Positions 9,573 to 34,628 of a stretch of 34,628 nucleotides of DNA are shown here, one piece after another. The notes under the pieces are model-generated. The model was not told where the DNA came from and searched no databases. It was given only the letters and a program-made list of their open reading frames with translations. Where the stretch lies: contig JAJRQC010000101.1 in the NCBI GenBank assembly GCA_024280455.1, positions 1 through 34,628 on the forward strand, given 5' to 3'. The translations under genes were made by a program, and so were the position numbers. Positions within the stretch are counted from its first letter, which is position 1. Every line of letters starts with the position of its first letter. Source of the stretch: Deltaproteobacteria bacterium. GTDB lineage: Bacteria > Desulfobacterota > Desulfobulbia > Desulfobulbales > Desulfobulbaceae.

Positions 9573-10379
9573 CTACCTGTTTCCTCCGCCTGTCCGTTCC
9601 GGGCAGGCGGGATTACTGTATTCAACAAGCTCCGCAGTCAGGGAACCGATCAGAATTTTTGAATTAATCGCAACCGGTATCCGGCAGGCATCATCGGTGA
9701 GCCAGAACACCGTATCGCCATCCTTATCATAGAGCCCCTTGAAATCCATCTTCGGCATTATTTTTACCGTATCCACCTTACCAAAGATGGAGTCCATTTT
9801 CTCTCTGCCCAGCATGACAACGGCCACCTCATGCCGTTTTTCATCGACATAGGTGGGGACAACATTCCCCTGCTCCAAAAACTTCAGAGCACGGGTAATA
9901 AAAAAAGAGGAAAACTCGTTATAGGCTGTTCCGGCAAGGGTAAAGGTTTTCACCGGCTGATCGTTCTTTTGATAGCTGACCTCAAGGCGCTGCTGGTCAT
10001 ACAGGGTCAGACGACGGGTTTCGCGACCGCCATGCCCCTCCCTTTGCAACACTTCGTACCTGTAGGGCAGCTTCAGAACACCACGAACCATCGTGGTGAA
10101 GATGTCATCGACCGGATAAAAGAGACGAAACATTCCGTAGTCGCTTACCCGGGCTTGTATTCTATAACCGTCACCATTTTCAGCCCGGCTGACAACAAGG
10201 TCCAGGTCGCCGATCTTGATCCCACCGGACCAGGAAATCGAATAATGCATGACCTCACTACCGGAGAAAATCGTATTCAGGACATCTTTTTGAATATGCA
10301 GCAGAGGGGGTGCATCCTGAGCAGACAAAGAACCGGCTGAAGCAAAAGACAATACAATAAAAAGCAGGAAACGTGACAT
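9573..10379 (-). CDS. DUF3108 exported protein, last gene of the menaquinone operon
   Basis: 268 residues with a signal peptide (SRFLLFIVLSFASAGSLSAQ). The mature part matches DUF3108: HYSISWSGGIKIGDLDL near the start, then FFITRALKFLEQG, and a C-terminal WLTDDACRIPVAINSKI. The function of DUF3108 is not established; it is probably a periplasmic or outer-envelope beta protein. Its ATG overlaps the TGA of the prenyltransferase gene (ATGA), so it is translated with the menaquinone genes. Confidence 0.75.
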   Translation of the reverse strand: MSRFLLFIVLSFASAGSLSAQDAPPLLHIQKDVLNTIFSGSEVMHYSISWSGGIKIGDLDLVVSRAENGDGYRIQARVSDYGMFRLFYPVDDIFTTMVRGVLKLPYRYEVLQREGHGGRETRRLTLYDQQRLEVSYQKNDQPVKTFTLAGTAYNEFSSFFITRALKFLEQGNVVPTYVDEKRHEVAVVMLGREKMDSIFGKVDTVKIMPKMDFKGLYDKDGDTVFWLTDDACRIPVAINSKILIGSLTAELVEYSNPACPERTGGGNR

Positions 10380-11232
10380 CAGACGGTCAGTAAAGAAAGC
10401 CAGGTGGCCAGGAACAGGGTCAGGGCGATGAACCCGTTCATGGAGAAAAAAGAGACCTGGATGCGGGAAAGATCTCTCGGATTCACCACCAGATGCTGAT
10501 AAAAGAGGGCTGCCCCGGTCAGGAGAAGACCTCCGTAATAAAACATGTTCAGTTCACTTTGGTAACCGGTCAGGGTGAAGAAGACAAAGGCCAGAACATG
10601 GAAAAAAACAGCCAGATGAAAGGCACGCCTGCGGCCAAGGGTGGCGGGCATGGAGTGCAGTCCGGCCTTGCGGTCAAAATCGGCATCAAGACAGGCGTAA
10701 ATGCAGTCAAAGCCGGTGACCCAGAACAGGACGCCAAGGGACAGTACCCAGGGATAGTTACTCAGAGATCCGGCCACGGCAACCCAGCCGCCCAGGGGTG
10801 AAAAGGCCAGAGCCACCCCGAGCACCAGGTGACAGAGCCAGGTAAAGCGCTTGGTCAGTGAGTAGACCAGGGTCAGGCCAAGGGCAATAGGCGCAATCAT
10901 CAGGGCCAGGGGGTTGAGCATGTAACAGGCAATAAAAAAAGCAGTCCGCTGACAATGACCATGGCCCAGGACTCGGTCAGGCTGACCTCACCGGCGGGAA
11001 TGGCCCGGTTGGCAGTCCGTGGGTTGGCGGCATCAAACCGACGATCGGCGATGCGGTTAAACCCCATGGCACAGGTTCGGGCCCCGACCATGGCCAGGAC
11101 CACAAAGAAAAAAACCCGTAAAGAGGGTACTCCGCGACCGGCGAGAAAAGCGCCCATCAAGGCAAAGGGCATTGCAAAAACGGTGTGCTTGAACTTGATC
11201 ATTTCAAGCAGGGTTTGAATTTTTTTCCGCAT
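10379..11232 (-). CDS. mqnP: UbiA-family prenyltransferase (MqnP-like), split by a -1 frameshift
   Basis: The gene reads in two frames. The first half (from ATG 11232, or 11250 overlapping ubiX) has the Asp-rich prenyl-diphosphate motif NRIADRRFD. The second half, in the -1 frame, has the second motif DADFDRKAG and further membrane helices. The break lies in a T7 run (A7 at 10934-10940 on the plus strand). There CTT-TTT-TTA can be read as U_UUU_UUA, the canonical -1 slippery heptamer in the correct phase, and a -1 slip gives an uninterrupted protein of about 284 residues. MqnP-type enzymes attach the polyprenyl tail to 1,4-dihydroxy-6-naphthoate in the membrane. The break could be a sequencing error, a mutation or programmed slippage. 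Confidence 0.8.
10933..10939 (-). other. Slippery heptamer U_UUU_UUA inside ubiA/mqnP
   Basis: On the minus strand the codons CTG-CTT-TTT-TTA-TTG contain T-TTT-TTA in the zero frame. A -1 shift continues as ATT-GCC-TGT-TAC-ATG, which restores the UbiA reading frame. A T7 homopolymer is also a common sequencing-error site and a possible transcriptional slippage site. Confidence 0.6.
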
Positions 11233-11234
11233 GG

Positions 11235-11801
11235 CTACATTCCACTCCACCTGGGAACATCCACATCCAGCCCTATCTGGTCACAGATTCGGGCGGCAAA
11301 CTGACGGGCCATCTCCTGCAGGGTTTTGGGCTGCAGGTAAAAAGAAGGCATTGGTGGACAGATTATTCCACCGGCCTCCTGAACAGCGAGCATGTTGCGC
11401 AGGTGGGTTCGATTCAGTGGTGTTTCCCGGACCGCAAGGACCAGCGGTCGCCGTTCTTTCAAGGTAACATCTGCAGCACGATGGATCAGGTTGCCGCTGT
11501 AGCCTCCGGCAATGGCACCCAGGGTGCCGGTGGTACAGGGAAGAATCACCATGGCTGCGTAGCGGCTTGAACCCGAAGCCGGAGGAGCGGTAAAATCATC
11601 AATATCAAACCAGTGGCGCACTCCGGCAAGGCTTTTATACTCTTTCAACCCCAGTTCCAGTTGCAGTACCTTCTCGCCGCTGCCGGATACAATCCCGTGT
11701 ACTTCTACAGACTGCTCCTTAAGCAACGCAAGGAACTCGGGCACATACAGCATGCCGGTAGCACCGGTCACTGCCAGAAGTATTTTTTTGTTTTCTCCCA
11801 T
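11235..11801 (-). CDS. ubiX: UbiX-family flavin prenyltransferase (MqnM role)
   Basis: 188 residues. Signature parts are AVTGATGMLYVPEFL at the FMN site, ILPCTTGTLGAIAGGYSGNLIHRAADV and LVLAVRETPLNRTHLRNM. It makes prenylated FMN, the cofactor for UbiD-type decarboxylases. In the futalosine pathway this role is called MqnM and serves the MqnL decarboxylase, which is not in the window. The menG start is 5 bases from this gene's upstream end and the gene is followed directly by the prenyltransferase. Confidence 0.9.
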   Translation of the reverse strand: MGENKKILLAVTGATGMLYVPEFLALLKEQSVEVHGIVSGSGEKVLQLELGLKEYKSLAGVRHWFDIDDFTAPPASGSSRYAAMVILPCTTGTLGAIAGGYSGNLIHRAADVTLKERRPLVLAVRETPLNRTHLRNMLAVQEAGGIICPPMPSFYLQPKTLQEMARQFAARICDQIGLDVDVPRWSGM

Positions 11802-11805
11802 TCGC

Positions 11806-12531
11806 TTATTTTATTCCAATGTAGATTGAAACAATACCAAAACTGAGCGGTTTTCGCTCAACATGGGAAAATCCGGCCTCACGCATCATGGAGAGCAGTT
11901 CTTCAGGTTCATAAAAGGCGGCAATGGATGAGGCCAGATATTCATACGCCTCTTTATCCCCCGAGACCAGCCCGGCCACAAAAGGCAACACCCGGTTCAG
12001 ATAAAAACTGTAGACCGGTTTTATAATAAAGTTGGTGGGCCGGGAAAACTCAAGGATCAGCAACTTTCCATGCACCCGGAGTACACGATGCATCTCACCC
12101 AGTCCCTGTTGGGTTCGGGCCAGGTTACGGACGCCAAAGGCGACGGTACAGCCGTGAAAGGTATCGGACGGAGCCGGGATCTCTTCGCCATCACCGCAGA
12201 CTGGAAAAATACGCTTTTTGCGATCATCTTCGGGCAAGGCTTTCTTTCCGGCCCTGAGCATATCTTCACAGAAATCAACCGAGAGCACCTGACGTTTTTT
12301 TGCCTGCCGGGTCAACTCCAGAGAGAGCGGCAGGGTTCCGGCGCAGAGGTCCAGCACAGGGCCGGCGGGAAACTCAGCCAGCAGACGGGTGGTCTTCCAG
12401 CGCCAGTAGCGGTCAATCTGCATCGACAGAAGCGAATTGAGCAGATCATAACGACCGCTTATGGCGGAAAACTTATCGCGGACAAACTTTTTCTTATCAT
12501 CCGGCTTGGGAAATGAAGATGGCTCAACCAT
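11806..12531 (-). CDS. menG: Demethylmenaquinone methyltransferase (UbiE/MenG)
   Basis: 241 residues. The SAM-binding loop is VLDLCAGTLPLSLEL; family signatures are the N-terminal FSAISGRYDLLNSLLSMQID and VAFGVRNL, followed by HRVLRVHGKLLILEFSRP. It C-methylates demethylmenaquinone, the last step of menaquinone synthesis. Sits between mqnA and ubiX in the operon. Confidence 0.92.
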   Translation of the reverse strand: MVEPSSFPKPDDKKKFVRDKFSAISGRYDLLNSLLSMQIDRYWRWKTTRLLAEFPAGPVLDLCAGTLPLSLELTRQAKKRQVLSVDFCEDMLRAGKKALPEDDRKKRIFPVCGDGEEIPAPSDTFHGCTVAFGVRNLARTQQGLGEMHRVLRVHGKLLILEFSRPTNFIIKPVYSFYLNRVLPFVAGLVSGDKEAYEYLASSIAAFYEPEELLSMMREAGFSHVERKPLSFGIVSIYIGIK

Positions 12532-12585: not shown

Positions 12586-13416
12586 TTATAGCTCAGGAAA
12601 AATCTTCATGGGCAGGGCATGCCTGTCGGCCTCACCCCGTTCAATGAGCAGGGTGAAAAACCGCTGCAACCCCTGCTGCTTAATGGGCTGCAGGTCATAC
12701 TCCATTGCATGCAGATACGAGGAGCAGGCCGCACAGTCCATGGGAATCCGCCGGGCAACCCGGTCGCAGATCTCCGGCAGACGGGCCAGGCCATTGGTTC
12801 GGCAGTCAAGCAGGGTCTGGTGGATCCGCCTGACTTGATCAGGCTCCTGCTGCAAATACTCCTCACGGACGGCAAAGACGGCAAAGACAAAGGGCAGCGC
12901 GGTTTGCTTATACCAGACTTCAGCCAGATCCAGCTGCACAGGGTATCGATTTTCATAGCGGAGCCGCAGGGCCTCGTCACCAATGGCAAGAATTGCGGCG
13001 GGTTCTTCCTCAGCCTGCCGATCGGCAAAGACCTCACCCCGGTAATAGGTGGGTTTGACAGAATAAAACTCTTCCAAGACAATCTTGACTAAACTAACCG
13101 AGGTATCGGACTGACCGGTCATCAACACGGATCGGCCGTCAAGTTCTTCCGGCGCAGCAGTTGAAAACAGAAAAACCGAACCAACCGGGCCGGTGGCTGA
13201 AATGGAGAGATCAGCCAATATCCGGTAACGTTCAGGCCGGGCCGCATACTCGTAGGAGGAGACAAAACCAAGATCAAGCTCGTTAGCAGCCAGCATCCGG
13301 TTCAGGCTGGCTGGAGGCGCCTCAATCACCTGCCAGTCGGCCTCGTGCACCTGCTCTTTCCATATCTCATAAATAGGCGCAGTATTTATGTAGTTGACCA
13401 TTCCTATACGTGTCAT
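12586..13416 (-). CDS. mqnA: Chorismate dehydratase
   Basis: 276 residues from ATG 13416; a GTG at 13434 would add six residues and overlap the upstream gene. The N-terminus TRIGMVNYINTAPIYE is the MqnA signature; DLGFVSSYEYA and SDTSVSLVKIVLEEFY follow in the periplasmic-binding-like fold. MqnA removes water from chorismate to give 3-enolpyruvylbenzoate, the entry to futalosine-route menaquinone synthesis. Confidence 0.9.
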   Translation of the reverse strand: MTRIGMVNYINTAPIYEIWKEQVHEADWQVIEAPPASLNRMLAANELDLGFVSSYEYAARPERYRILADLSISATGPVGSVFLFSTAAPEELDGRSVLMTGQSDTSVSLVKIVLEEFYSVKPTYYRGEVFADRQAEEEPAAILAIGDEALRLRYENRYPVQLDLAEVWYKQTALPFVFAVFAVREEYLQQEPDQVRRIHQTLLDCRTNGLARLPEICDRVARRIPMDCAACSSYLHAMEYDLQPIKQQGLQRFFTLLIERGEADRHALPMKIFPEL

Positions 13417-13426
13417 AATTCTCTCG

Positions 13427-14656
13427 TCAGCCACTCACCCATTGCGGTTTAGTACTGCTCCCCCTATGAACCAGGGCAGCGCAAACCTCTTGTTCTTTTT
13501 GCAGGTCCGATGCTACCGGTACGGCAAGAAAGTGACTGCTCCGACCGGGGTCCAGGGTTCCATACTCAGCCTCTATGCCAAGCGCAGCAGCTCCGCCCGC
13601 AGTCGCCATCCTTAGAATTTCATAGGGATCAATCTCGGGATGATCCTCAGCAAGCAGCTGCATTTCACGCCACATGGAAACCTCCGGATTACTGGCTGCT
13701 GAATCGGTTCCAAGGGCCGGAAGTATCCCCTGGCGAAGATAGGCTGCAACCGGGGCTGTGCCAACCTGGAGAAACCGGTTGCTTCCAGGGCAGAGACAGA
13801 TTTTTGCACCGCTCTCTTTCAACAGGGTAATTTCACTTTCACTGACATGAATGGCATGGACACACAGAGTTTTCTCATCCAAAACCCCGAGGCTATGTAA
13901 ATACTGTACAGACCCCTCAATGTCAATTCCCGCCCAGCTAAACGTATCTTCATAAAAACCGCGCTTCCGTAAAAAATCTGCCATTTCACCAGTACCACTG
14001 GTGAGCATGCTGTTTTCAGAAACGGGTTCCGCCACATGGATGGGAAAGAGAAAACCCAACTGGTCAGCCCTTTTTTTCAAGGCCCGGATCAATTCCGGAT
14101 GAGTTGAATAGGGAGCATGGGCGGTGCAGGCGATATGATCGTCTGCCTTTCCAAGCTTTTTCAGGGCTGGAACAAGGGAGCCCCTTGTCAATCCGAGATA
14201 TTCAAGAAATGGGAAGAGCAGGCCGGGGAATACACCAACAAGCTTGCGGGCCACCCCGGTGTTGCCGATATCGGCAAGGGCAAGGACTCCGCTGTCATGC
14301 TGAACCTGCAAAACATCTAAGGCCGCCTCCTCAACATGGGGACCGGTCACACCCAGAGCCTCGCGTTCACTCAGCATTTCCGTGAGCCAGTCGGTAAAAC
14401 TCTCCGCTGGATTTCCCTGGCTCAAATGGGCTAGATTAGAGAGTTCCAGGTGGATATGGGCATTGATCAGCCCCGGCATCAGAACGCAGCCATCATGATC
14501 CTCAACCGCCGCTCCGGCAAATTCCGCCTCAAGCTCACGAAACGGGCCGACCGCGGCAATAGTCTTGTCGTGGAGGACGACGGCTCCATCGGCAACAATG
14601 GGACCGGCCATGGAAATGAGCCAGGGGGCACGATGTATGACTACAGGAAGTTGCAC
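13427..14656 (-). CDS. mqnX: Amidohydrolase, probable aminodeoxyfutalosine deaminase
   Basis: 409 residues. Metal ligands of the amidohydrolase superfamily are visible: HIH in INAHIHLE, HVAE, HAIH and the Asp of GTDSAASN. This belongs to the SAH/guanine/aminofutalosine deaminase group. Its position between mqnC and mqnA makes deamination of 6-amino-6-deoxyfutalosine to futalosine the most likely reaction. An S-adenosylhomocysteine deaminase activity cannot be excluded from sequence. Confidence 0.8.
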   Translation of the reverse strand: MQLPVVIHRAPWLISMAGPIVADGAVVLHDKTIAAVGPFRELEAEFAGAAVEDHDGCVLMPGLINAHIHLELSNLAHLSQGNPAESFTDWLTEMLSEREALGVTGPHVEEAALDVLQVQHDSGVLALADIGNTGVARKLVGVFPGLLFPFLEYLGLTRGSLVPALKKLGKADDHIACTAHAPYSTHPELIRALKKRADQLGFLFPIHVAEPVSENSMLTSGTGEMADFLRKRGFYEDTFSWAGIDIEGSVQYLHSLGVLDEKTLCVHAIHVSESEITLLKESGAKICLCPGSNRFLQVGTAPVAAYLRQGILPALGTDSAASNPEVSMWREMQLLAEDHPEIDPYEILRMATAGGAAALGIEAEYGTLDPGRSSHFLAVPVASDLQKEQEVCAALVHRGSSTKPQWVSG

Positions 14657-14686: not shown

Positions 14687-15748
14687 TCAGGCCGGAGTGT
14701 AATCCATCAACCGCTGCCGGGGCTCAAATCCGGCGGCACGGACCAGGTGCTGGATTTCCTCTTCAGTCAATCTGAAATGGACCCCGGCTGCAGCAACAAC
14801 ATTTTCTTCAATCATGGTTGAGCCGAAATCGTTGGCGCCGAAGAAAAGGGAAACCTGGGCGATCTTCGGGCCCTGGGTGACCCAGGAGGCCTGGATGTTA
14901 TCAAAATTATCAAGAAAGATCCTGCTTAAGGCCAGCATCCGCAGGTAGGAAAATCCGGAGGTTTTTTCTATTTCTACAGCTTGAGCCAGCGCCGTGTTGT
15001 CGGGCTGAAAGGGCCAGGGAATAAAGGCGGTAAAACCGCCGGTGCGGTCCTGGAGATCACGCAACCGTTGCAGATGCTCAAGCCGCTCCTCGATGGTCTC
15101 AACGTGGCCGAACATCATGGTGGCCGTGGTACGCATGCCCAGATTATGGGCCTCTTCCATCACCTCTATCCAGCGGTCGGCCGAACACTTGCGCGGCGCC
15201 AGCGATTCGCGGACACGGTCGGAGAGGATTTCAGCCCCGCCGCCGGGCATGGAATCAAGCCCTGCCGACATGAGTCGTTCAAGAACGGCCACGGTTGAGA
15301 GTCCGGAGAGTTCGGCAAAATGACAGATCTCAGGTGGTGAACAGCCATGGACATGAATACCGGTTTTTTTCATGAAGTGCAGCATATCTTCATAAAACTC
15401 AAGCGGTTTATCCGGATGGAGCCCTCCCTGAAGCAGAATCTGGGTGCCGCCGAGTTCCTGGGTCTCGAGAATTTTCTGCTTCAATTCCTCGTTGGTGAGT
15501 AAGATCCCGCCCGCCTCTTCCGGGGCCTTGAAAAAGGCACAGAACTTACAGGCCGAAATGCAGATATCGGTATAATTGATATTGCGGTCAATCACATAGG
15601 TAACCACCGGCTCCGGGTGCTTTTTTTTGCAAATGGCGTTGGCCGCAAAGCCGAGTTGATAGAGATCCGCCTCAGCATACAGCTTGAGAAACTCATCGCC
15701 GGAAATACGCCTGCCGGCCAGTACCTTGTCAACTATTTCCTGAACCAT
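14687..15748 (-). CDS. mqnC: Cyclic dehypoxanthine futalosine synthase (radical SAM)
   Basis: 353 residues from ATG 15748; a TTG at 15766 overlaps the mqnE stop. The radical SAM cluster motif is CISACKFC (C-x3-C-x2-C). TATMMFGHVET and FIPWPFQPDNT distinguish MqnC from MqnE. It cyclises dehypoxanthine futalosine using a 5'-deoxyadenosyl radical. Follows mqnE by 14 bases. Confidence 0.92.
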   Translation of the reverse strand: MVQEIVDKVLAGRRISGDEFLKLYAEADLYQLGFAANAICKKKHPEPVVTYVIDRNINYTDICISACKFCAFFKAPEEAGGILLTNEELKQKILETQELGGTQILLQGGLHPDKPLEFYEDMLHFMKKTGIHVHGCSPPEICHFAELSGLSTVAVLERLMSAGLDSMPGGGAEILSDRVRESLAPRKCSADRWIEVMEEAHNLGMRTTATMMFGHVETIEERLEHLQRLRDLQDRTGGFTAFIPWPFQPDNTALAQAVEIEKTSGFSYLRMLALSRIFLDNFDNIQASWVTQGPKIAQVSLFFGANDFGSTMIEENVVAAAGVHFRLTEEEIQHLVRAAGFEPRQRLMDYTPA

Positions 15749-15762
15749 AATCTGATCTGATC

Positions 15763-16857
15763 TCAAAAAGTCTCGATGACGTTATAAAGGGTGTCGCGCT
15801 GGACCGGAGTTCGACCGGCCTCCTTGATCAGCCGGATCAATGTCTTATGGCCCAGGGCCTGTTCAGTCTCGGCCCCGGCCATATGGGTGATCACCTCTTC
15901 CTTGACCGTACCGTCCATATCATCGGCACCAAAGGAAAGCGCAACCTGGGCCATCTTGGGACCGATCATGACCCAGTAGGCCTTGATATGGGGAAAGTTA
16001 TCCAGCATCAAACGGGCAACCGCAACATTTTTCAGGTCGTCCATTCCGGTTGTTCGAGAATGTTCGGACATCTCGGTATTTTTTGGATGAAAGGCAAGCG
16101 GGATATAGGCAAGGAAGCCACCGGTCTCGTCCTGGGTTCTGCGCAGGGCATCAAGATGCTCAAGTCGTTCGTCGATGGTCTCGATGTGCCCATAGAGCAG
16201 GGTTGCATTGGTATTTAATCCATGCCGGTGGGCAATACGGGCAACTTCCAGCCACCCTTCACCGGAAAGCTTTTTCTCACAGGTCAGTTCACGGATGCGG
16301 GGACTGAAGACCTCGGCTCCGCCGCCGGGAATTGAACCAAGTCCTGCATCTTTCAACTCTTCCAGGGTCTCTCCGACTGATTTGCCTGCAAGCTCGGCCA
16401 GATGGTATATTTCGACACAGGTAAAGGCCTGGATATGGACCTCGGGTCGGATCTCTTTAATACCCCGCAACAGGTCCAGGTAATATGAATAGGGCAGATC
16501 GGGATGAATCCCGCCGACCATATGGATCTCGGAGATGGGTTCATCCAGACGCTCACGGACCTTTTCCTTCACATCTTCAACCGTCATCTCATAGGCCTGT
16601 TCATGCCCCTTTTCCTTGCCGAAGGCGCAGAACTTGCAAAGATTGGTGCAGACGTTGGAGTAGTTGATATGCTGGTTGTAAATAAAAAATGCCTGATTGC
16701 CGTTTTTCCGCTCCCGGACGATATTGGCCAGATAACCAAGAGCCAGGAGATTATTTGAAGCAAACAGCCGCCGGCCGTCCTCCATGCTCAACCGCTCCTC
16801 GGCCCGAACTTTTTCTAGGATATCGCCCAACCCGGCCTGTTCAATTAAGGTGTCCAT
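15763..16857 (-). CDS. mqnE: Aminofutalosine synthase (radical SAM)
   Basis: 364 residues. The cluster motif is CTNLCKFC; NATLLYGHIET and YIPLAFHPKNTEM are MqnE-type. It joins 3-enolpyruvylbenzoate with SAM to make 6-amino-6-deoxyfutalosine. First gene of the menaquinone operon. Only ~50 bp separate it from the terminator of the upstream sigma-factor gene, so its promoter must be short or overlap that terminator, or it relies on read-through. Confidence 0.92.
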   Translation of the reverse strand: MDTLIEQAGLGDILEKVRAEERLSMEDGRRLFASNNLLALGYLANIVRERKNGNQAFFIYNQHINYSNVCTNLCKFCAFGKEKGHEQAYEMTVEDVKEKVRERLDEPISEIHMVGGIHPDLPYSYYLDLLRGIKEIRPEVHIQAFTCVEIYHLAELAGKSVGETLEELKDAGLGSIPGGGAEVFSPRIRELTCEKKLSGEGWLEVARIAHRHGLNTNATLLYGHIETIDERLEHLDALRRTQDETGGFLAYIPLAFHPKNTEMSEHSRTTGMDDLKNVAVARLMLDNFPHIKAYWVMIGPKMAQVALSFGADDMDGTVKEEVITHMAGAETEQALGHKTLIRLIKEAGRTPVQRDTLYNVIETF

Positions 16858-26547: not shown

Positions 26548-26585
26548 GATTACATCCTAATCAAGAAAAACGTCGAACGCGACAC

Positions 26586-26685
26586 AAACCAGCATGGCTG
26601 GACCAAGATTTTACAGGTCACAGCCACAACCAACAATGAAAATAGCCTGATACGACATCACTTCGTGGGCCATTTTCAGGTAAAA
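26586..26685 (+). repeat. Structured repeat copy filling the hcp 5' leader
   Basis: One full unit of the array seen at 1-288. P1 is GGCTG-g-ACC with GGT-ca-CAGCC. P2 is GAAAAT-a-GCC with GGC-c-ATTTTC, the mismatch position differing from the array (A.C instead of A.G). It occupies nearly the whole leader between the predicted start (26554) and the Shine-Dalgarno at 26693-26700. It is a candidate cis-acting RNA controlling hcp, or an inserted repeat. Confidence 0.75.
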
Positions 26686-31206: not shown

Positions 31207-31461
31207 CTATATTGAATCAAGTGGACTTCGCACTCCTTGTCCGCTACGATTGAGCACATGGGTATAGATCATGGTGGTTGACACGTCGGCATGGCCGAGA
31301 AGTTCCTGTACTGTGCGAATATCATAACCGTTTTCCAGAAGATGAGTCGCAAAACTATGGCGCAGGGCATGACAGTTCACCCTTTTGGTTATTCCGGCCT
31401 GGGTCGCCGCCTTTTTCACTGCTTTCTGTAATCCATTCTCATGGATGTGGTGTCTGCGTAG
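31207..31461 (-). pseudogene. Integron integrase remnant (IntI C-terminus)
   Basis: About 84 codons survive. [17 protein letters not shown] is the IntI-specific stretch, followed by [22 protein letters not shown] and [17 protein letters not shown] with the HxxR box and the nucleophile tyrosine. Homology stops at ~31461, where the transposase element begins; a stop codon falls at the junction. The N-terminus, the attI site and any cassettes on that side are missing from the window. Confidence 0.85.
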
Positions 31462-33673
31462 TTACCTGGAACAGATAGACGAAAGAACGCTCAAGTGGCT
31501 TGACAAGAGCCTTGCCGCCACGCCGGACATCAGCCGGACCCAACTGGCAGGCAATCTCTGCAAACACTTGTCCTGGCACGATATCAATGGCCGCCCCAAG
31601 ACCACCGGTGGTGCGATTGCCCTGAGACGGCTTGAAGATCTTGGCCTGATCACCCTGCCGAAAGGACGTGAGATCGCCTGTAATGATCCGGCCCGCAGGG
31701 GACAAATAAAGCCCTATCCTGCTCGCTCCGAGCTTCATTGCGGCTTGGCGGAACTTGGCGAAATTGAGCTGATCATGGTCAATGACGACCGAAATCAGTG
31801 GCAATTGTGGCAGAACATGGTCAACACCTGGCATCCTTTGCAAAACAGCAATTTGTGTGGGGCAAGGATCTGTTACCTGATCCGTTGTCAGGCTGAAGGG
31901 ATAATCAGCGCCATATCCTTTTCCAGCGCGGCCTGGCGCCTCCAGGCCCGTGACAAGTGGATTGGCTGGACGAATCAGACCCGCGCCGAAAACCTTGCCA
32001 TGGTGGTCAACAACAGCCGATTCCTCATTCTGCCCCAGGTACACGTTCCCCACCTGGCTTCCCATGTCTTGGCCAGGGCCTGTCGTCAGGTTGCCGGGGA
32101 CTGGGAAATAATGTATGGTATCCGTCCAGTACTTCTGGAGACATTTGTCGATCCCCGGCAGTATCGCGGTATCTGTTACCGGGCTGCAGGATGGCAGTGT
32201 ATCGGCAAGACCAGTGGCCGCGGACGCCAGGATACCGGTGATGCCACCCAGGCCAAGGATATCTACTGCCTGCCTGTACAAAAGAATTTTCGTACGCTGC
32301 TTGGCGGGCAACCACCCAGGTCGCTGAGCTGGACTGAAGAAGAATTCGGCCAGGTGAACCTTGGTGACAAGCGGCTTAAAAAACGACTTTTTCGCATAGC
32401 CGAGGATTTCTATGCCAACCCCCTGGCCAGCATACCCCAGGCCTGTGGCAGCCGTAGTGCTGCTAAAGCAGCCTATAGATTTTTTCAGCATCCTGCCGTG
32501 AAACTCGAAGAGACGTTGTCCGGGCATTATCAGGCAACCGCCAAGCGGATCCAGGCGCATAAAGGGGTGATTCTGGCTGCCCAGGACACCACCAGTCTCA
32601 ACTATGCCACTCATCCGGCTACCGTGGGCCTGGGGCCCATTGACGCCAAGGGAACCCAAGGTGTCCTGGTCCATGACACCATGGCGTTTACCGAGGACGG
32701 GGTTCCCCTGGGTCTGATTGATGTTCAGCACTGGGTACGACAGGAAAAAAAGAACCGGACAGTGACGGAAAGTGCCAAGTGGCTGGAGAGCTTCAAGGCC
32801 ACCCAGCAGCTCAGCAGGCAGTGTCCCGGCCCGTTGATTGTCAATGTCGGGGATCGGGAGGCTGACTTTTTCGACCTCTTTTGCGCTGTCCAGCCTGATG
32901 GTGCCCAGCTCCTGGTCAGGGCCGTGCATTGCCGCGCCCTGGCCGATTCCGATACCAACATATGGGTTCACATGCAGCGCTGTGCCTCCAAAGGCACGCT
33001 GGAGGTCCATGTCCCGCCGCGAAAAAACCAGTCTGCCGGGGTAGCCAGCCTGTCTGTTACCTTTGACCAGGTTGTTCTGCAGCCGCCCAAGGGCAGAAAA
33101 GAACTTTCGCCGGTCACCATGTGGGCGGTGCTGGCGAGGGAAACCGACCCACCCGATGGCGTGGAACCCTTGGAGTGGCTTTTGTTGACCTCGGTGGCAG
33201 TGGATAATTTTACCGCTGCCTGCCAGCGGATTGAATGGTACACAAGGCGCTGGGGTATTGAGGTCTTTCACCGGACACTTAAAAGCGGCTGCAAAGTCGA
33301 AGACCGCCAGCTGGAAACCGTTGATCGGATTACCGCGTGCCTGGCCATTGACATGGTCATTGCCTGGCGGGTTTATTACCTGACCATGCTTGGCCGCCAG
33401 ACCCCCGATGTCCCCTGCTCGGTGTTCTTTGAAGAAGTCGAATGGAAGGCGCTTACCGCTCATGCAGCACGTCGTCCCTCCCCCGCCCCTGAACCGCCGC
33501 CCCTGTACGAGGCTATCGTCATGGTCGCCAGGCTTGGCGGGTATATCAAACAAAGCCGCAAGGAACCGCCCGGCACCGAAACCATTTGGAGGGGCCTGGT
33601 TGCATTGGGCTGGATCACTGATGCATGGCGTGCCTTTGGCCAGCAAAATGGCCCTCCGAGGAAACCTGAATAG
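31385..33673 (+). CDS. DruA-like (DUF4338) / Tn5-type IS4 family transposase
   Basis: The open frame gives 762 residues from ATG 31385, but the first ~26 are antisense to the integrase and do not belong to the family; homology starts around [13 protein letters not shown]. Domain order: DUF4338/DruA-like ([50 protein letters not shown]), then the Tn5-type DNA-binding domain ([16 protein letters not shown]), then a DDE domain. Catalytic parts are [17 protein letters not shown] and [15 protein letters not shown], which fits Y-x2-R-x3-E-x6-K. All three acidic residues are present. No own ATG is seen inside the element, so the 5' end may be lost. Confidence 0.82.
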
Positions 33674-33690
33674 CGTTCACGTTATCCAGG
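31465..33690 (+). mobile_element. IS4-like element inserted in the integron integrase
   Basis: The left limit is set by the end of IntI homology (31459-31465). Candidate inverted ends are CCTGGA at 31465-31470 and TCCAGG at 33685-33690; 11 of the first 17 bases match when compared inverted. No target duplication is evident, so the ends are approximate or one is truncated. Confidence 0.5.
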
Positions 33691-34628
33691 GATATTTGTG
33701 GGTAACTGGCAGGCCAGTATGGAAAGGGCTTTGCCTTTGCCGTGTTTGTTGACCAGTTTCTGGTGATATTTTTGTCCGGCACCATTGCACCTGAGGAAGA
33801 GCTGGGCAGCCTCGGCAAAAGCCCAGCGTAAATGGGCATTGCCGATTTTCTTGCCGGCAGTGCCATACTTCTTGCCGTTGGATTCCTTTGCACACTTGAC
33901 CAGACGGCAATATGAAGCAAAATCCTGTACCCTGGGAAAGCGACCAATGTTTTCTTTCATACAAGAGTACCAGGGCAATGATCTTGCCTACACCGGGAAT
34001 GGTCCTGAGCAAGGCATAGGAGGTGGCATCATGTGCTTTGGCACATTTAACGATCTACTGCTCCAGCTGTGTGAGCAGGTAGTCATAGGTTTCAATCATA
34101 TCCAGATTGACGGCAACCGACATCTGGACAGCGGGATCCTCAAATTTTTCCCGCAGTCCTTCTCTGTTTCGGGCATGTGTTATCGCTCCCAGAGGAGGCA
34201 GGTTGTACTGGCTGGCAGTGTTTTGGATGTGGGCAAGCAGCTCCGCTCTTTTGCGCATGAGGTGGTTTCGTCTGCGCATTAGATCTCTGGTTGATCGCAT
34301 CTTCTGCGGATAGACATAGGCCATGGGAATGAGACCACCACGCAGCAATGCTGCTATTTTTTTGGAGTCAATTTTGTCATTTTTGCTTTTGACGCCATGG
34401 ATGGCCCGCATGTACAAGGCATGACCGAGAATAAAAGGAATGTTTTCCTTTTCGCAAAGGTCAGCCAACCAATACCATGTGAACATGCATTCGGCGCAGA
34501 CGACGATGTCCTCCCGGTATGGCTTTATAGCCCGGAGAAAGGCTTCCGGATTTGTCCGAATATTCCTGTGCAAGGCGATTTCACCCTCTTGAGTGAGGAT
34601 GCACAGGTACATTTTGTTGGTGTGCAGG
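33682..34628 (-). pseudogene. IS110-family transposase, decayed and cut by the window edge
   Basis: The N-terminal RuvC-like DEDD part is readable from the right edge: LHTNKMYLCILTQEGE, VVCAECMFTWYWLAD, KNDKIDSKKIAALL. An in-frame TAG near 34053 follows LLTQLEQ. The sequence resumes with IVKCAKAHDATSYALLRTIPGVGKI, then shifts frame near LLYE to ENIGRFPRVQDFASY and ends with GNAHLRWAFAEAAQLFL, the Transposase_20 domain. Two lesions make it inactive. It lies tail-to-tail with the IS4-like element. Confidence 0.85.

Follow-up and report, generated by a model that had tools for sequence, protein, structure and literature searches.

The prenyltransferase MqnP is a UbiA-like protein of the futalosine pathway, described by the models NF041586 (MqnP_DT), TIGR01475 and PF01040, and its role was put forward from genome comparison, in the part of the source on which we draw (PMC4746308). 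Genes expressed through programmed -1 ribosomal frameshifting, of which dnaX is the type, have an X_XXY_YYZ heptamer in phase with the upstream frame, a conserved site and a stimulator of the shift; U_UUU_UUA is such a heptamer, as in HIV. Transcriptional slippage is instead associated with long runs of A or T, often of at least nine, and with a split that is conserved. A further class comprises the singletons of the GeneTack survey, which are disrupted in one genome only and are confirmed as such by homologues and Pfam; in the portion of that survey available to us, BLASTp-validated singleton frameshifts are expected to be sequencing errors and not genuine indels, and Table 1 files them under pseudogene or hypothetical pseudogene / error (PMC3711429). 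The locus described here is an mqnP whose frame is disrupted in a single genome, like the survey singletons, but whose break happens to fall on a textbook slippery heptamer.

The window, by which we mean the whole stretch of 34,628 nucleotides that was analysed, corresponds to contig C112. The genome to which it belongs amounts to 4.15 Mb in 173 contigs, with a completeness of 99.85% and a contamination of 4.83%, and its nearest named relatives, judged by mqnP, are Desulfobulbaceae metagenome bins. Its minus strand carries a futalosine cluster in the order mqnE, mqnC, amidohydrolase, MqnA-type ORF, ubiE, ubiX and mqnP, in which mqnP alone is split. The principal features are as follows.

10379 to 10921, minus strand: downstream half of mqnP, read in the -1 frame and carrying the second Asp motif DADFDRKAG (UbiA profile positions 86-248 of 250)
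10900 to 11250, minus strand: mqnP upstream half, with the first Asp motif NRIADRRFD (UbiA profile positions 1-84 of 250)
10934 to 10940, minus strand: run of seven T's at which the frame is lost, making an in-phase T_TTT_TTA with the A at 10933 (read from the sequence)
11235 to 11801, minus strand: ubiX-family flavin prenyltransferase, upstream neighbour of mqnP, open (TIGR00421, 193 bits, above cut-off)
11806 to 12531, minus strand: ubiE/menG methyltransferase, open (TIGR01934, 221 bits, above cut-off)
12586 to 13434, minus strand: MqnA-type (VitK2_biosynth) menaquinone biosynthesis ORF, open (PF02621, 199 bits; no NCBIfam match)
14687 to 15766, minus strand: mqnC, open (TIGR03699, 482 bits, above cut-off)
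15763 to 16857, minus strand: mqnE, open (TIGR03700, 492 bits, above cut-off)

These neighbours are those of a futalosine-pathway MqnP, with mqnC and mqnE above their curated cut-offs and the PF02621 ORF beside them. The best model for the amidohydrolase is aminofutalosine deaminase, although its score lies below the cut-off of that model. An initial annotation of this DNA had spoken of an otherwise complete menaquinone operon, and this description is supported in part: the six genes checked in the window (mqnE, mqnC, the amidohydrolase, the MqnA-type ORF, ubiE and ubiX) are all open.

By homology the locus is assigned as a disrupted copy of mqnP. The upstream half, which probably starts at the Met codon 11232-11230, is read in the 0 frame as CTT TTT TTA TTG at the break and then ends at TGA (10902-10900). 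The heptamer T_TTT_TTA (10939-10933) is in phase with this frame, so that the initial annotation was right in placing the split at a canonical -1 slippery site, and also in its claim that a -1 shift at the T run rebuilds the enzyme: the two halves match consecutive parts of the 250-position Pfam model, and their translations hold NRIADRRFD and DADFDRKAG, which we take to be the Asp-rich motifs of UbiA and MqnP proteins. Each half also matches the NCBIfam MqnP and UbiA-like models, with scores below the full-length cut-offs, as expected for halves. The prenyltransferase is thus not encoded in one continuous frame in this assembly, the frame being lost once. The downstream half contains a Met codon at 10921-10919, and the open frame in which it lies has 202 codons in total.

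The coincidence of break and heptamer says little by itself. Comparison with relatives suggests CTT TTT TTT ATT as the intact sequence at this place; loss of any one T from its run of eight gives CTT TTT TTA TT, which sets T_TTT_TTA in phase and shifts all that follows into the -1 frame. The heptamer and its -1 repair therefore follow automatically from a one-T deletion and are not independent evidence for recoding. Neither is the heptamer rare. In a sample of 885 ORFs, called mechanically in 1.26 Mb of the genome with a minimum of 150 amino acids and not proven to be genes, there were 53 in-phase copies of T_TTT_TTA, of which 36 lay well inside their ORFs. The same ORFs contained 200 T7, 379 A7, 54 T8 and 92 A8 runs.

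A protein search of 37 genomes, including that of the window, found mqnP in 30. The other 29 genomes comprise two with contig-end fragments and 27 with a full-length gene in one open frame, one row (G024) listing a stop. Combining the loci of the genome search with 80 loci of named genome records gave 97 distinct loci with readable sequence spanning the site. In the frame of the C-terminal half, every one of the 97 stays open over 95 codons or more on the upstream side, and the aligned C-terminal halves contain no stop codon in any of them; hence the comparison with close relatives, which the initial annotation had proposed, finds mqnP in a single frame throughout and the split in none of these loci. 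The site usually codes two aromatic residues followed by x-A, and 25 of the 97 have a run of seven or eight T's there, in frame. None has the heptamer in phase; in two, TTTTTTA does occur near the site, but its phase is different and the gene is not split. A search of viral contigs with the junction sequence gave no matches.

A paralogue that might rescue the enzyme, a concern of the initial annotation, was sought and rejected, as both UbiA matches in the 4.15 Mb genome fall within the split mqnP and no other UbiA gene was found. The dN/dS of the halves against six relatives was 0.06-0.12 upstream and 0.06-0.13 downstream, in the 11 of 12 comparisons that could be computed (the remaining downstream value could not) and with dS near or above 1, that is, close to saturation. 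Both halves are strongly constrained, which implies that the break is either recent or not real; with only one UbiA gene found in the genome, an undecayed null is therefore unlikely.

Close mqnP is missing from 7 of the 37 genomes, where the gene may be less needed than was assumed or may sit in assembly gaps. Five of these have at least 300 contigs, and G017 and G018 about 30, so that the absence may be real in some. UbiA searches gave matches in four of the seven, three of which, all of the same genus as the window, score above the family cut-off; in G004 the full-length ORF encodes a protein of the UbiA family, and G005 carries a very similar one. In both of these genomes (loci L253 and L254) the other UbiA-family gene adjoins a shared ORF of unknown function.

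The frequency of broken frames elsewhere in the assembly was estimated from 1037 ORFs in 1.2 Mb of the relative G012, set against 1.26 Mb of this genome, with 206 usable comparisons. Of twelve rows, we set aside four on L247, whose offsets measure about 110 bases and which fall on both strands, one on L158 that was apparently a chance antisense frame, and two on L122 and one on L233 in which the break seemed to lie in the reference. The breaks that lie in this genome affect four of the 206 genes, namely mqnP (at its T7 run), an adaptor-like gene (next to two A7 runs), a partial copy of hypF (at a G6 run) and an acetyl-CoA-synthetase-type gene. With the roles reversed, G012 shows seven split rows from six genes in 193 comparisons, five of the genes having an offset of the one-base type; the rate is similar, and the comparison does not show the present assembly to be the worse of the two. 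As a control, seven window proteins were compared with 107 loci of other assemblies; the 323 comparisons, which cover few and conserved genes, gave two flags, both at N's, and no split in the remaining 321. The contrast with this control has a one-sided Fisher p of 0.059 without mqnP (3/205 against 0/321) and 0.023 with it, and is weaker if the hypF copy is dropped, which leaves 2/204 splits besides mqnP.

The second hypF copy, at 18879-19998 of L132 (contig C20), has its acylphosphatase part near its Kae1-like part with the middle region gone and a frame break near the G6 run, while an open hypF lies in contig C76; the partial copy is probably a real pseudogene. The adaptor-like gene resembles efflux adaptor proteins, and three of the 18 other genomes searched hold close relatives of it; Pfam gives no match for its C-terminal piece, and the name is our own reading. 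This gene is accessory and may be truly broken. In the acetyl-CoA-synthetase-type gene (L127, contig C15, 1-148) the frame changes 145-148 bases from a contig end, and the outermost 141 bases at that end recur identically at the end of contig C10. An ab initio frameshift scan that required runs of at least six gave 15 rows, several of which look like ordinary gene overlaps, and its sensitivity was limited, mqnP itself being missed. The rows taken further were those of recN, the hypF copy and the adaptor-like gene. The scan did identify recN, split at a G8 run around position 2371 of L125 (contig C13). A recN match was found in all 18 other genomes searched, one as a contig-end fragment and five in rows that list one stop (the query began upstream of the start); the five of these genomes that were read at the site have shorter, in-frame G tracts.

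Between contig ends there are nine overlaps of 73-141 bases, and a dispersed repeat stands at the start of several contigs. The window contig itself begins inside a repeat of about 96 nt, of which three units lie in tandem at 19-306 and a single one at about 26585-26680, the latter overlapping the start of a Prismane (hybrid-cluster protein) family ORF. The core of this repeat is an inverted sequence around CCAGCATGGCTGG. It has at least 137 matches in this genome, at least 41-73 in each of six of the other seven genomes of the genus, and at least 13 weak matches in one genome of another family. Towards its other end the window holds a single long ORF on the plus strand (31385-33673) that fuses a DruA-like domain to Tn5-type transposase domains, and an IS110-type transposase on the minus strand (33677-34612) that is broken by a stop codon and, by our reading of its frames, by a frame change.

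Of the explanations for the split in mqnP, an error in the sequence, or else a recent slip private to this genome, accounts for it better than a built-in frameshift does. We lean, with some reserve, towards an error of reading or assembly by which eight T's were written as seven in this one assembly. On that account mqnP would be an ordinary gene of the futalosine pathway, the living organism would carry T8 followed by A, and a single T dropped from the data would produce the T7 run, the break in the frame and, as a by-product, the slippery heptamer; the loss, we infer, arose in the data and not in the cell. In its favour stand the single frame of mqnP in all 97 related loci, the runs of seven or eight T's in 25 of them, the other one-base breaks of this assembly (in recN, the adaptor-like gene and the acetyl-CoA-synthetase-type gene) and what the GeneTack survey expects of singletons. 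The G012 result weakens one argument for an artefact, but the conservation of the sole mqnP still carries it. A genuine one-base loss by replication slippage, recent and confined to the strain or to part of its population, is a tentative alternative that we consider possible but hold with less conviction; such an allele would be null, or else leaky, sustained by slight slippage of ribosome or RNA polymerase and easily reverted. Homopolymer tracts are hot spots for real indels too, and the T8 and A8 runs that the assembly keeps within ORFs indicate that such runs are not generally shortened in it. A genuine indel would also accord with the likely hypF pseudogene in the same genome and with the seven genomes that lack close mqnP, and some full-length enzyme could be made, U_UUU_UUA being a known shift site. 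Against this, the broken gene is the only UbiA gene found, it stands beside pathway genes that are otherwise open, and decay is seen in neither half. A further point against it is that heptamers without stimulators in E. coli give, in the part of that study used here, ratios no higher than 10 relative to the background without a motif, the mean of which is 0.055% (PMC4066793); this by our own arithmetic is a shift of up to about 0.5%, and U_UUU_UUA is far less shift-prone than A_AAA_AAG in the E. coli results that we draw from PMC5009743.

The readings in which the T7 run is functional are, taken together, unlikely. Programmed -1 frameshifting at U_UUU_UUA, giving full-length MqnP and possibly a point of control, has in its favour the kind and phase of the heptamer, both shared with genes of the dnaX type, and the continuation of the enzyme in the -1 frame. 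Unlike those genes, however, the mqnP site is conserved in none of the 97 loci, and the downstream stimulatory stem that the initial annotation had wished to see looked for did not appear: RNA 3' of the site folds no better than shuffled sequence (z of -0.75 over 94 nt and +0.84 over 55 nt, in a model that excludes pseudoknots). Nor was a Shine-Dalgarno-like motif found within about 40 bases upstream, 60 bases holding only a distant GAGG, and the same heptamer lies in phase at 36 interior positions of the sampled ORFs. Our literature search found nothing on programmed ribosomal frameshifting of a menaquinone prenyltransferase. Given the lack of conservation and of a detected stimulator, and a heptamer common in open frames, we rejected this reading as distinctly improbable. 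Transcriptional slippage, by which a fraction of mRNAs would acquire eight U's, is more improbable again. The homopolymer does sit at the exact site of the break, and the run length prone to slippage varies widely among bacteria, eight A's sufficing in one species; yet selection against coding A/T runs is visible from nine in a large proportion of genomes, according to the part of the same source consulted (PMC1088944). The run here is of seven, a length common in the sampled ORFs, and the runs of the relatives vary with the gene in frame. Least credible of all is a prenyltransferase made as two polypeptides of 116 and 180 residues, with reinitiation at Met 10921 and assembly in the membrane. 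An in-frame ATG does lie a few codons past the slip site, and conservation extends to both halves, but in many relatives this Met is internal to the protein (CYMLN), no ribosome-binding site is seen next to it, and the arrangement occurs in none of the 97 loci. Of the three options that the initial annotation had left open, then, the homopolymer error or indel is the one favoured; programmed frameshifting gained no support beyond the heptamer, and transcriptional slippage, while possible, gained none.

These results carry a general caution, which is that wherever a T8A tract ends on a codon boundary, the loss of one base from it will always mimic a perfect in-phase -1 slippery site, so that the coincidence of a split with such a heptamer is not, on that ground alone, evidence of recoding. 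Should the T7 run nonetheless be real and fixed, with the only menaquinone prenyltransferase gene found being expressed solely by slippage at U_UUU_UUA, whether of the ribosome (by -1) or of the polymerase, which we think very unlikely, a respiratory gene of an environmental bacterium would be present as a low-dose allele that reverts easily, and this would mean that a bacterium can run its sole quinone-synthesis step of this kind through slippage.
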